From Gammaproteobacteria bacterium (GTDB taxonomy: Bacteria; Pseudomonadota; Gammaproteobacteria; Burkholderiales; Rhodocyclaceae): 64,000 bases of DNA. The DNA lies in NCBI GenBank assembly GCA_018824085.1, contig JAHJHI010000001.1, positions 30,875-94,874 of the forward strand. The letters run 5' to 3'. Both the position numbers and the translations under genes were made by a program. Position 1 is the stretch's first letter; every line of letters starts with the position of its first letter. This document shows, piece after piece, positions 1 to 5,069 of this stretch. The notes beneath the pieces are model-generated. The model searched no databases. It had not been told where the DNA came from and saw only the letters and a program-made list of their open reading frames with translations.

Positions 1-148
1 ATGACACACTAGGCAAGCCCTTGATACGCTCTTCCGTGCGAGTGAAATCCTTGTGCTGCGAGAAATTCTGCAGCGGCGTCTTTTTCAACAGGGCAGTTTG
101 TTTCGCAAACTCGATGAGTGCGGCTAGGCGTTCGTTTTTAATGTCCAT
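1..148 (-). CDS. Partial CDS (N-terminus only), unidentified protein; runs off left edge
   Basis: Manual translation of reverse strand from ATG (rc 146-148): MDIKNERLAALIEFAKQTALLKKTPLQNFSQHKDFTRTEERIKGLPSVS..., open to the window edge; begins about 12 bp after the stop of the upstream gene on the same strand. Confidence 0.55.
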   Translation of the reverse strand, partial: MDIKNERLAALIEFAKQTALLKKTPLQNFSQHKDFTRTEERIKGLPSVS

Positions 149-160
149 TAGATAGCTTTC

Positions 161-670
161 TTATTTGGCCATGAGCACGATAATTACCAGCACAACCAGG
201 CCGATGAGAATCCATTTAATGCCGGCACTTCCGGACTCAGTCGTAGTTTTGGCCTGGAATATAGTGCGCATCACACCGTATTTGAATTGGGCTTCGTACG
301 CTGTTTTACAGGCAGAGCACGAAAGATGCTGCACAACACCTTCAAGAGTAGAGACGAAATTGGGTGTTTTGCAGTTAGCGCAATCAACAACCACACGGTC
401 GGGTGCAACCGGAGGAGTCTGAATTACTGGCGCTTCAGGCACACACTCTTTCGGAAGTGACTTAACTGGAGGCGCGGGGGGCAGAACCACTCCTTCAGAT
501 AGTCTCCGAACAAGCTCATCAACCTCAGCCTTCAATGCACGTGCTTTCGGGCGGTCGCGATGCCCTAACTCGTATTGAATAACTTTGAGTGCTTTTAAGT
601 CACTGCGTGCCGTTGAAATCAACTCTTGAATCTGTTCGATTCCATGCTTAAAATAAGGGCGATAGCGCAT
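161..670 (-). CDS. Hypothetical protein: N-terminal helical region, CxxC..CxxC zinc ribbon, C-terminal TM helix
   Basis: 169 aa ORF; motifs CANCKTPNF...LSCSACKTAYE; hydrophobic tail WILIGLVVLVIIVLMAK; low-GC region. Confidence 0.7.
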   Translation of the reverse strand: MRYRPYFKHGIEQIQELISTARSDLKALKVIQYELGHRDRPKARALKAEVDELVRRLSEGVVLPPAPPVKSLPKECVPEAPVIQTPPVAPDRVVVDCANCKTPNFVSTLEGVVQHLSCSACKTAYEAQFKYGVMRTIFQAKTTTESGSAGIKWILIGLVVLVIIVLMAK

Positions 671-765
671 GTTGTTGCTTTGATTTTAACTAATTAGTAA
701 AACAAGCGGTGTTTCGCATTCTACAAAAAACACGACTATCAAACATTCCAATCACGTGCAATAGC

Positions 766-982
766 CGAACCGCCCCGAGGCTGGTTGGGGTAAGTCAGGC
801 GGCGACCTCGGACGCCTGGCGGCCGCAGCCGGTGGAACTGAGCAGGCAATGGTGGTTGAACAAGGACACCCATTCAAGTGTTGCCAGTTCTACCACCGCC
901 TCCGGGGTCTTCCACGGCGCACGGCATGAATCATTCGGCTTTGTACAACCCGTTGACGGTCTCGGCCAGAGCGTTGTCACCC
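766..982 (-). mobile_element. IS3-family insertion sequence remnant (3' end of transposase OrfB, frameshifted)
   Basis: Reverse strand reads GDNALAETVNGLYKAE-stop in one frame, continued in another by RAPWKTPEAVVELATLEWVSLFNHHCLLSSTG, the classic IS3 OrfB C-terminus; IR-like GAACCGCCCCGAGG at 767-780 just beyond the CDS end. Confidence 0.75.
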
Positions 983-1007
983 CACCCTTCTGAATGGAGA
1001 GCAGGCG

Positions 1008-1457
1008 ATGCGATTCATCATCACGGCGCAGTCCGATCCGGCGAACCGGAGCGCCGAGCAGACGGACGAGTTCGATGCCGAACTGTTCAAGGCCTATATG
1101 CGCTTCAACGAAGAGATGCACACCGCCGGGGTGCTGGTGGCGTCCGAAGGTCTGAATCCGGCGGCGCAAGGCGCGCGGATTGCTGTTGCGGACGGGAAAC
1201 GCTATGTCGTCGATGGTCCGTTCGCAGAGTCCAAGGAGCTGGTCGGCGGCTTCTACATCATCGAGGTCACGTCTCTCGATGAAGCCATCGGGTGGGCGCT
1301 GCGCGCGCCCTGCGGCCTGGGTACGGACGACATTCTGGAAGTGCGCCAACTGACCGGTTCGGACGACCTGCCGGCTGATCTTCTTCAGCTCATCGAGGAA
1401 GCCGCGCCGACCTGGAGTGCCGATACCTGGCAGTCGCGCAGCCGCGAGGCGCGTTGA
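1008..1457 (+). CDS. YciI/DGPF-domain protein
   Basis: MRFIITAQSDP...; DGPFAESKELVGGFYIIEV motif. Confidence 0.85.
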   Translation: MRFIITAQSDPANRSAEQTDEFDAELFKAYMRFNEEMHTAGVLVASEGLNPAAQGARIAVADGKRYVVDGPFAESKELVGGFYIIEVTSLDEAIGWALRAPCGLGTDDILEVRQLTGSDDLPADLLQLIEEAAPTWSADTWQSRSREAR

Positions 1458-1502
1458 AGCGTTCCGATCCGTCCGGCATCTTCGCCTTCGAGGAGAACCA
1501 TC

Positions 1503-1988
1503 ATGGTCACACCCGCAAAGAACACCGTCTGTCTTTGGTTCAACGGCGGTGCAGAGGACGCGGCGCGGTTCTACGCCGCCACCTTTCCCGATTCCTTCGT
1601 CGGCAACGTGTATCGCGCGCCGGCTGACTATCCATCCGGCAAGGAAGGCGATGTGGTGACGGTGGCGTTCACCGTCATGGGCATCCCCTGCCTCGGGCTG
1701 AACGGCGGGCCGGCCTTCCCGCAGACCGAGGCATTCTCCTTCCAGGTGGCGACGGCGGATCAGGCGGAAACCGACAGGCTGTGGAACGCCATCGTCAGCA
1801 ACGGCGGCCAGGAAAGCGCCTGCGGCTGGTGCCGGGACCGCTGGGGCCTGTCCTGGCAGATCACGCCGGTGGCGCTGATGAACGCCATCGCCCACCCCGA
1901 CCCGGCGACGGCGAAGCGGGCGTTCGAGGCGATGATGGGCATGACGAAGATAGACATCGCGGCGATCGAGGCGGCGGTGCGCGGCTGA
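1503..1988 (+). CDS. VOC/PhnB-like (3-demethylubiquinone-9 3-methyltransferase-type) protein
   Basis: NTVCLWFNGGAEDAARFYAATFPDS...GLSWQITP pattern. Confidence 0.85.
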   Translation: MVTPAKNTVCLWFNGGAEDAARFYAATFPDSFVGNVYRAPADYPSGKEGDVVTVAFTVMGIPCLGLNGGPAFPQTEAFSFQVATADQAETDRLWNAIVSNGGQESACGWCRDRWGLSWQITPVALMNAIAHPDPATAKRAFEAMMGMTKIDIAAIEAAVRG

Positions 1989-2187
1989 ACCGCATCGGTC
2001 CGGGCCAGACCACGCTGTGGACCGCCCGATCGGTGTTGCCCGCCGTTTTCCAGGGCCTTTATGATGCGCACATCGCTTCAGCGGCCGCCGTCCGATACGG
2101 GTGCGGCCGTGCTGCGCTTCTGACTGCACGCCGTCGGCCCGGTCGCACAGACCGGTGCCGCGGTTCGGCTCACCCGGGAGTTCGCGC

Positions 2188-2562
2188 ATGGGCGTTCTTG
2201 ACGATCACAACCGCCTGCACACTTATGGCGACAGCCTCGGCCCGCCGACAACCGTCGTCGGCGTTTCCGCCCGGCAGGCGATCGAGGCGAACAGGCGCCC
2301 GCTCGATGCGGGCGCGCAGGGCGCGTCTTCCGGTCGGACACTTCACGGCAAGGAGCACCTCAAACTGGCCGTGGGCGGATTGATGATTTCGGTGGTCTTC
2401 GCGCTGGCTGCCTGGATCGTAGGCGGCATCGGCGCGGTGGCGCTCGGCTTGCTCGCGGTCATCTCCGGACTGTTCAGCGCCTGCTTTCTGGTCGCTGCGC
2501 TGATCAGCGCAGCGAAGGCCACGGCATCCCGCGGGCGTGGTGGCTCGTCACCGGGGCCCTGA
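2188..2562 (+). CDS. Small membrane protein of unknown function
   Basis: MGVLDDHNRLHTYGD... with two predicted TM segments; start chosen at internal ATG. Confidence 0.4.
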   Translation: MGVLDDHNRLHTYGDSLGPPTTVVGVSARQAIEANRRPLDAGAQGASSGRTLHGKEHLKLAVGGLMISVVFALAAWIVGGIGAVALGLLAVISGLFSACFLVAALISAAKATASRGRGGSSPGP

Positions 2563-2565
2563 GGC

Positions 2566-2970
2566 GTGACGCGACCTCCCCCTGCTTCGGTATCCGGCAC
2601 CCGGGTGCGCCCGGCCTTCACCGAACACCTGAACGAGGTGTTCAGGGCGTTCGGCGCCATCGACGCACGACGCATGTTTGGCGGCTACGGCATCTACCAT
2701 GAAGGCGTCATGATCGGCCTGGTCATCGACGAAACGCTCTATCTGAAAACCGACGCCGGCACGCATGAGCGCTTCCAGGATGCCGGTGCCGAACCCTTCC
2801 GGTACGAAAAGCGTGGCGAGACGGTCGTTACGTCCTACTACTCGATGCCGGTCGATGCGTTTGACGATCCGGATCTGGCCCGGAGCTGGGCGAGTGTTGC
2901 GTATGAAGCGGCGCTGAGAACCAGGCAGCGTGCACCGAAGCGCAAACGGAAGTCCGCAAAGGCAGACTAG
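2566..2970 (+). CDS. TfoX N-terminal domain family protein
   Basis: FGAIDARRMFGGYGIYHEGVMIGLVIDETLYLKTD. Confidence 0.85.
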   Translation: MTRPPPASVSGTRVRPAFTEHLNEVFRAFGAIDARRMFGGYGIYHEGVMIGLVIDETLYLKTDAGTHERFQDAGAEPFRYEKRGETVVTSYYSMPVDAFDDPDLARSWASVAYEAALRTRQRAPKRKRKSAKAD

Positions 2971-3009
2971 GCACGCTGCGGTACGCGGAGCGACGGGTAC
3001 CGATTACCC

Positions 3010-3242
3010 TCCCCTTTCAAGCGTGTGCGACGGCACGCAGGTTTCGCCCTCGCCGCATACCTGTGCCGCGCCGGCGATGAGTCAGGCCAGCATCGGCCGC
3101 TTCGAGCAGTAGCCGGCCTCAAGTCCGCGAGCCCAGGCCCCGTACTGCGCCTCGTCGACGAACAGGTCGTGGCCGTTCGTTGCCAGCGCGATTACGCAAC
3201 TGAAGGGGCATGCACCCCGCATCGCGTTCGCCCGCCCGCCTG
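3010..3242 (-). pseudogene. Degenerate fragment of an ArnT/PMT-like (GT39/GT83) glycosyltransferase N-terminus
   Basis: Reverse strand: CVIALATNGHDLFVDEAQYGAWARGLEAGYCSKRPMLA-stop(3082-3084)-LIAGAAQVCGEGETCV; resembles the DLFFDEAQYW..GYFSKPP..AWLIA..CG family pattern, with an in-frame stop. Confidence 0.5.
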
Positions 3243-3647
3243 TGATCGCTTCCGCTCAGCCCGCACCCCGGCGGGGTTCGCAAGCCCCGAAACTACAGAG
3301 AGGTCGGCCGTGAAGTCGCTGCAGGTTGTCATCGTGATGAATGCGCCTGTCAAGACCGACCCGACATTCGGAAGCCTGCATCCCGTTGAAGCAGTACCCG
3401 GCACGAAGGCATGTTTCTCTGCTCATTGCGGCTGCCCCGCGGTGTGTGATCCGCTCGAATCCGGTCACGTACCGGGCTTCGGGAATCGGCAGCCGTCGAC
3501 CGCGCAGACTACGGGTACCAAGCAAGGCTGGACGTGGCGCGGGGGCTCGCCCGGCATGCTGCTCCAGTCACACATTGCATTCGCGCGGAGTCCAAACATT
3601 CCAGAGCGCACGATTCCGCCGCTCGATCTTGAGAAAGGACTTTCACG

Positions 3648-4055
3648 ATGAAAACGTACGATGTTCAATCCGTTTCCCTGCACGTATCCCGGGAACAGGC
3701 TTTTGCCTTCATTTCGGACGCGCGGTGCCTGCCCCGCTGGACCAGCGCCTTTGCAGCCGTGGACGGAAAACGGGCATTGATGAGGACCCCGGCAGGCGAA
3801 GTGCTCGTCGATCTTGAAGTACACGCGTCCTCTGATACGGGTTCGATAGACTGGGCCATGACCTTTCCCGACGGAACGTGTGCCGGTGCGTACTCGCGCG
3901 TTGTCGAGCTTGGCCCCGATCATTGCGTCTACACGTTCGTCCTCACGCCACCGCCCGTCGCTCTGGAACAGCTCGAAGGAACGCTCGAAGTGCAGTCCGG
4001 GATTCTCGCGGGGGAACTGCGTACGCTGAAGGACGTGCTCGAACATGCCCGATGA
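3648..4055 (+). CDS. SRPBCC-family (polyketide cyclase/START-like) protein
   Basis: 135 aa; VSLHVSREQAFAFISDARCLPRWTSAF; overlaps next gene. Confidence 0.7.
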   Translation: MKTYDVQSVSLHVSREQAFAFISDARCLPRWTSAFAAVDGKRALMRTPAGEVLVDLEVHASSDTGSIDWAMTFPDGTCAGAYSRVVELGPDHCVYTFVLTPPPVALEQLEGTLEVQSGILAGELRTLKDVLEHAR

Positions 4056-4899
4056 CCAGCAGACGGATCTGAACGCACTGGCTGCGCTCGCGCGGAAAGG
4101 CGATCGCGACGCACTGGAAGTGCTCGTGCGCGCCATTCAGAAGGACGTGTACAACCTCGCAGTGCGCTTTCTCTGGCATCCGCAGGATGCGGAGGACGCC
4201 ACGCAGGAAATACTGATCCGCATCATTACGGGCCTGGCCACCTTCGAAGGACGAAGCCGGTTCCGCACATGGGTCTACCGCGTGGCCAGCAACGCCTTGC
4301 TGACGCAAGGCAGGAAACGGATGGAGCAGGCGGCGCTGTCCTTCGACGCATTCGCCGAAGCGCTGGCCGACGGCCTGGCCCCTGGCACACCCGAACCGAG
4401 CTCGAGCGCCTCTGATGATCCCGCTGAAGCCCTCATGCTCGAAGAGGTCAAGGTCGGCTGCACCCATGCGATGCTGCTCTGCCTGGACCGCGACCACAGA
4501 CTTGCCTACATACTCGGCGAAGTGCTCGATCTCGACCATGGCGAAGGCGCGGACATTCTCGTCATTACGCGCGCAGCGTTCCGCAAGCGGCTGTCACGTG
4601 CCACTCAGCGCATCACTTCTTTCATGACCGGGCATTGCGGCCTCATTGATTCCGGCAATCAATGCCGGTGCAGGCTCAAGATCGGATGCGCCATCAAACG
4701 GGGACACGTTCGCCCGGAAGCCCCCCTGTTCGCACAGTCCCTGACGCATGCACAGCGTTTTCCGGAGGTGCTCAGAACCATCCGCCAGCTCGAACAGGGG
4801 CGCCGGGCTGCGGCGCTGTACCGGTCTCATCCCGATCTGGCGCCTTCGACGCCGTTCAACACCTGGCTGAAGCAGCTCCTGACGTTCGAATCCGGTTGA
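4045..4899 (+). CDS. ECF-type RNA polymerase sigma factor with Cys-containing C-terminal extension
   Basis: Sigma-2 region DAEDATQEILIRIITGLATFEGRSRFRTWVYRVASN; sigma-4 region; C-terminal CGLIDSGNQCRC. Confidence 0.85.
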   Translation: MPDDQQTDLNALAALARKGDRDALEVLVRAIQKDVYNLAVRFLWHPQDAEDATQEILIRIITGLATFEGRSRFRTWVYRVASNALLTQGRKRMEQAALSFDAFAEALADGLAPGTPEPSSSASDDPAEALMLEEVKVGCTHAMLLCLDRDHRLAYILGEVLDLDHGEGADILVITRAAFRKRLSRATQRITSFMTGHCGLIDSGNQCRCRLKIGCAIKRGHVRPEAPLFAQSLTHAQRFPEVLRTIRQLEQGRRAAALYRSHPDLAPSTPFNTWLKQLLTFESG

Positions 4900-5069
4900 G
4901 GTCCGACACCTTCCTCAGGCGTCTGCCCTGCCAAAAGCACCGGACAGACGCCCGGAATCCGTTGCGGATGGCTGACCTATGCAATGGTCTCCAGGGCAGG
5001 CCGCGTGTCCAATTTCGTCCTCGTGCGGATGATTCCCGTACCCGCCGGACGGCAGGCGTCAGGCGTGCG

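Follow-up and report, generated by a model that had tools for sequence, protein, structure and literature searches.

What do the two genes at the left edge of the analysed DNA encode, and do they belong together? The window, as we call the whole stretch of 64,000 nucleotides, carries at this edge a gene for a 169-aa protein, followed by the first codons of an open reading frame that leaves the window. Since window base 1 corresponds to C49:30875 on a 94,874-bp contig, 30.9 kb of left flank could be read. A first-pass annotation of the window had suspected a large effector in the partial protein. In agreement with this, the complete reading frame encodes 1544 aa comprising a helicase and a nuclease (Table 1). 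As described in that annotation, the two genes lie on the same (minus) strand, about 12 bp apart and in AT-richer sequence. The GC content was 0.49 for the 169-aa gene and 0.543 for the helicase gene versus 0.68 for both flanking core genes, and the short gap suggests that the two genes may be co-transcribed. GC3 values were 0.62 (helicase), 0.46 (169-aa gene) and 0.87-0.88 (flanking core genes); the difference between the first two indicates that the helicase and small-protein genes may differ in origin.

The dip in GC content to about 0.49-0.58 was confined to about contig positions 26,000-32,000 (500-bp bins). This tract consists of the two genes (5.2 kb) and short flanks with core-like GC on either side. 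The flanking core genes are nitronate-monooxygenase-like and ETF-QO-like (named by eye). The first-pass annotation had placed the locus at the right-hand edge of an island; a larger island was not borne out because core sequence is back about 300 bp past the helicase stop codon. The transposase scar reported to adjoin the genes was found as an IS3-like remnant at window about 760-990, of which about 843-978 gave an 83% match to C28:21646-21780 in the same genome.

In G675, the only same-genus genome compared, the flanking core genes are about 0.83 kb apart, versus 9.85 kb in the genome studied here (G000). The GC shift and the empty site in G675 demonstrate that the two-gene cassette was horizontally acquired, as previously supposed. 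No such helicase was detected in G675 and 14 further genomes of the same bacterial family, and neither a target-site duplication nor flanking repeats could be convincingly identified at the cassette. The nearest helicase (L046:5202-9851; 95% amino acid and 91% nucleotide identity) is encoded on a proteobacterial MAG contig, where it lies alone between coaBC and dut (gene names by eye) with nothing else inserted. Its homology to the window copy is limited to the helicase ORF, beginning 3 bp before the start codon. The GC content of this gene (0.546) matches its surroundings (0.556), which makes a donor of that composition plausible. At the G675 site, L136:9200-10030 holds a repeat array (GTTGGGCATCGCTGCGCTCACCCCAACCTAC) where G000 carries the 9.85-kb insertion. 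YCII-like, glyoxalase-like, TfoX-like, SRPBCC-like and sigma-factor-like ORFs (by eye) at window 1008-4899 are also missing from the G675 site, and the ORF cluster to which they belong probably reflects a separate acquisition or a loss from G675.

Table 1. Features of the cassette, its surroundings and the related partner proteins.
Feature	Position	Strand	Remarks
Small-protein gene, 169 aa	window 670-161	-	N-domain, zinc ribbon and C-terminal transmembrane anchor
N-domain, residues 1-60	window 491..670	-	leave-one-out profile, AF2, homologues
Putative zinc ribbon, C97-x2-C100 ... C118-x2-C121	window 308..385	-	weak Pfam zinc-ribbon matches below cutoff
C-terminal hydrophobic helix, about residues 150-168	window 167..223	-	sequence; AF2 helix 151-168
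Intergenic gap, 12 bp, stop to next start	window 149..160	-	
Helicase-nuclease start, first 49 codons	window 1..148	-	ORF exits left edge
Helicase-nuclease, complete ORF, 1544 aa	C49:31022-26388 = L003:12389-17023	-	left-flank contig sequence
Helicase-nuclease motifs	residues: Walker A 427-434; DEASQ 1114-1118; motif VI region 1345-1352; Vsr-like nuclease 1402-1495		
IS3-family transposase remnant beside cassette	window 739..993		family named by eye
9.85-kb segment missing from G675 site	C49:26090-35943		
Remainder of 9.85-kb segment	window 671..5069		normal-to-high GC; no counterpart at G675 site
J-like partner proteins	L162:7790-8359 and L166:9483-10040		N-domain and DnaJ-like domain

Pfam matches to AAA_11 (61.1 bits) and AAA_12 (49.7 bits; cutoff 27 for both) identified the 1544-aa protein as an Upf1-like SF1 helicase. 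Its C-terminal nuclease matched MTES_1575 (109.2 bits, cutoff 38.2), a Vsr-type PD-(D/E)XK nuclease (PMC3710099). The earlier view that neither family could be named holds for the N-terminal domain of the small protein, which has no Pfam family, but not for the helicase. In an alignment of 14 relatives, the Walker A lysine, the Walker B DE and the nuclease E/D...E-x-D residues were invariant or nearly so, and the nuclease residues E1403, D1429, E1443 and D1445 were kept in 13-14 of the 14 aligned proteins. Judged by these conserved catalytic motifs, the helicase-nuclease is intact. Distant matches were obtained with the Hhe, ProA, PDC-S37 and Mokosh models of PADLOC and NCBIfam; the ProA equivalog of NCBIfam gave 206.8 bits, under its cutoff of 1500.

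Relatives of the helicase occurred in 27 of 300 genomes of the order, the own genome included, and are spread across phyla. With no similarity threshold, 426 plasmid records matched the helicase, 25 of them with a coverage of at least 80%. The phage records contained no match to the helicase family or to the N-domain of the small protein. In a BREX-1 locus of Acinetobacter a relative immediately follows brxL, and on a plasmid of Sphingobium another is preceded by restriction genes. Further relatives were located directly downstream of Wadjet I JetC and JetD in Chromobacterium piscinae (L049:3021-12470), near PDC-S02/HEC-06-like genes in Bacillus, adjoining a type-I-REase-like helicase in Halanaerobium and, in Variovorax WDL1, ahead of PDC-S14. 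The surroundings of many other relatives are ordinary genes. On two Variovorax plasmids, short ribbon-helix-helix-like ORFs (L166:4786-4986 and L168:4729-4926) overlap the helicase start. We know of no phage assay for this helicase family. From domain content, relatives and context, the helicase-nuclease likely acts in defence. This supports the link to defence raised in the first-pass annotation. Apart from the partner, no recognisable defence gene was found among the cassette's own neighbours. A housekeeping or mobile-element helicase serving nucleic-acid repair or RNA turnover would fit the many relatives among ordinary genes and the RNA roles of Upf1-like helicases in eukaryotes (PMC11090510). 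It is highly improbable in view of the patchy distribution (27/300 order genomes, 0/15 near relatives), the plasmid carriage, the defence neighbours, the nuclease fusion and the relation to Hhe.

The 169-aa protein had been described as a zinc-ribbon/transmembrane protein, which is correct but missed the informative N-terminal domain. The C-terminal helix is predicted to be a tail anchor, which would place the N-terminus in the cytoplasm. Except for a weak N-terminal match to DruH3, no family for the protein was found in Pfam, NCBIfam and PADLOC. Single-sequence structure prediction of the whole protein was poor outside the N-domain and the anchor. Weak matches in L007, L037 and L041 contain stop codons and were rejected as chance.

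The first 60 residues, referred to as the N-domain, matched the N-termini of long helicases on a Xanthomonas plasmid and in two other genomes. A four-member profile (A3) yielded four further helicase loci, and three others were retrieved with a profile of nine members (A4). Additional N-domains were found in Rhizobium gallicum, Agrobacterium vitis and Methylobacterium aquaticum (one each). The consensus RPYxxxSIxELExLF..L..ELxxRxTxRAxxLxxxV is common to these N-termini of SF1 helicases. Leave-one-out profiles recovered 12/12 core members with E values of 8e-9 to 3e-19 (Z=1e5), and the N-domain of the window protein scored 52.3 bits (E 1.7e-13). It displays the three helices and the invariant R, EL, R and L positions of the family (alignment A5), and AlphaFold2 with a 10-row alignment predicted a three-helix bundle (mean pLDDT 91.5). 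The N-domain profile gave no significant match to PDB sequences, and Foldseek returned nothing at E <= 0.001, as expected for a three-helix bundle of 60 residues. Low-scoring matches in L143-L149, L160, L161 and L165 were dismissed as chance. Without a Pfam family, and as checked against limited libraries and literature, the N-domain is apparently undescribed.

All 15 confident instances, a modest sample from about 1,970 genome slots (overlapping searches) and the plasmid set, were associated with SF1 helicases, 12 of them as fusions and three as separate adjacent proteins. Nine fusions involve MkoC-like Upf1 helicases, assigned by PADLOC in L043, L044 and L045 and by sequence resemblance, Pfam or annotation in L150, L154, L163, L164, L174 and L175. 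UvrD-like helicases carry the domain in L152 and in L153, which is broken by a frameshift. L151:8386-13284 is a genuine Hhe, scoring 2133.7 bits with the NCBIfam model (cutoff 2000); the model starts at residue 118, after the N-domain, and the N-domain precedes DUF4011 (127 bits). The helicases of L150, L164 and L175 are apparently truncated or broken as well, and such truncated or frameshifted N-domain helicases suggest frequent inactivation. As later members were retrieved with profiles of earlier ones, the bias towards helicases could in part be inherited from the seeds. Apart from the small protein, however, Mokosh-like fusions alone served as seeds, and no profile extended beyond the N-domain; recovery of Hhe-type, UvrD-type and separately encoded pairs is therefore independent evidence.

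The three separate N-domain proteins (window, G956 and a Variovorax plasmid) are all encoded beside this helicase family. In the window the partner gene lies upstream of its helicase. In G956, whose helicase is 41% identical to that of the window over its length, the helicase stop overlaps the partner start (ATGA). In Variovorax paradoxus CP063168.1, a partner ORF of 186 aa follows about a dozen bp after the helicase; the gene table of this plasmid lists no feature for it. The G956 and Variovorax partners are 36% alike over their full length and both end in a DnaJ-like domain (G956: Pfam DnaJ 32.3 bits, cutoff 27.8), in contrast to the zinc ribbon and membrane helix of the window protein. Their HPD motif is altered to HPE and HPS, and the domain may therefore not activate DnaK. 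In a tree of 44 proteins, the window helicase and the G956/Variovorax pair fell into separate supported clades, requiring at least two changes. The pairing of helicase and partner thus arose at least twice or was often lost. We tentatively propose, at somewhat less than even chances, that the N-domain serves defence helicases as a hitherto undescribed docking module that moves between cis (Mokosh-like, Hhe and UvrD-like fusions) and trans (small adaptors with variable tails, either zinc ribbon with membrane anchor or J-like), with the adaptor tail setting the cell location or host factor of the same kind of helicase-nuclease.

Co-occurrence of the pair across genomes, raised in the first-pass annotation, was confirmed in so far as this kind of pair recurs in at least two other genomes, in a different clade; most relatives lack the partner. 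It was absent from the flanks of nearly all named relatives, including the 95% identical L046 helicase, so that the pair is not conserved in all relatives. An N-domain was not detected in the 25 other helicase-carrying genomes either. A small membrane gene upstream of the helicase therefore does not accompany all relatives, as had been considered, and the partner is regarded as accessory. The helicase-nuclease might even be a complete single-gene defence system and the 169-aa gene an unrelated upstream acquisition. This would explain the stand-alone relatives, the sharp start of homology in L046 with coaBC directly upstream, and the unequal GC3 of the two genes. It is nevertheless unlikely, because in 15/15 confident instances the N-domain is either part of an SF1 helicase or encoded right next to one, and because two more pairs with the same helicase family emerged from N-domain and partner searches conducted without a helicase query. 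The tight coupling to the nuclease gene (12-bp gap; ATGA overlap in G956) and the common N-domain with a variable C-terminal module would also suit a regulator or antitoxin-like restraint under which the helicase-nuclease stays inactive, held at the membrane, as long as the cell is not infected. The 25 genomes with a helicase and no detectable N-domain protein, however, indicate that the nuclease is not obviously toxic alone, and fusion of the N-domain to the helicase in 12 cases likewise makes such a restraint improbable.

On balance, we consider it fairly probable that the locus is an acquired anti-phage cassette composed of a helicase-nuclease effector and an accessory adaptor, which would bind the helicase and hold it at the membrane. 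The helicase-nuclease, capable of acting alone, would load on phage-derived nucleic acid (DNA or RNA), move along it at the expense of ATP and cleave it. The N-domain of the small protein would dock to the helicase, the putative zinc ribbon may be in contact with nucleic acid, and the C-terminal helix would tether the complex at the inner membrane, the entry site of phage DNA. An interaction is suggested by the Rosetta-stone argument, since the domain is fused to helicases elsewhere and encoded beside one here. We infer docking, tethering, anti-phage activity and substrate alike.

Hhe and other large helicase-nucleases of the Upf1-like kind are regarded as defence systems made of one protein. 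An N-domain common to Hhe, Mokosh-like and UvrD-like helicases and to separate adaptors beside a helicase-nuclease family points to a common principle of docking or targeting, can serve as a query in the search for more such systems and raises the question of whether membrane tethering or J-like coupling alters what such helicases attack. Hhe (DUF4011; NF042953, PDLC02194) resembles the window helicase in its Upf1-like SF1 core followed by a C-terminal nuclease region, and its model matched best at residues 1083-1496. In contrast to Hhe, the window helicase lacks DUF4011 (Pfam), reaches 147.5 bits against a cutoff of 2000 and has a separate small partner. The best PADLOC match was PDC-S37 (189 bits), covering the helicase and nuclease region in two stretches, the best at 916-1342 of 1550; as a genuine Hhe scores 964 bits with this model, the window family is an outlier rather than a typical member. 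Mokosh (MkoA/MkoC) shares the SF1 Upf1 core, and many N-domain fusions are MkoC-like. However, the window nuclease is of the MTES_1575 Vsr type and not PLD, the MkoC match of the window helicase stops at position 963, and the N-domain fusions match MkoC only to about 950 of 1136.

In Druantia III DruH-DruE, too, helicase-nuclease and partner are distinct proteins (PMC13192584, PMC13316683), but DruE is an SF2 helicase. The DruH3 profile gave weak matches from 6/12 N-domains (window protein: positions 7-52; best E 1.7e-4). The match to DruH was not full-length but restricted to residues 12-59 (E 0.003), and none of the DruH-like loci examined carried an N-domain; they failed to confirm the link, which we regard as a lead only. 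In CoCoNuT systems (PMC11090510), the UPF1-like helicase CnuH/CnuE occurs with nuclease and accessory parts fused or in trans and with Vsr-like effectors. The window system is similar in its UPF1-like helicase with fused or separate parts and its Vsr-like nuclease. It differs in that no McrB GTPase is encoded beside the helicase gene, and the N-domain does not feature in the consulted passages of that paper. The cassette is apparently a variant of the known Upf1-like helicase-nuclease defence, distinguished by an apparently undescribed shared N-terminal domain.
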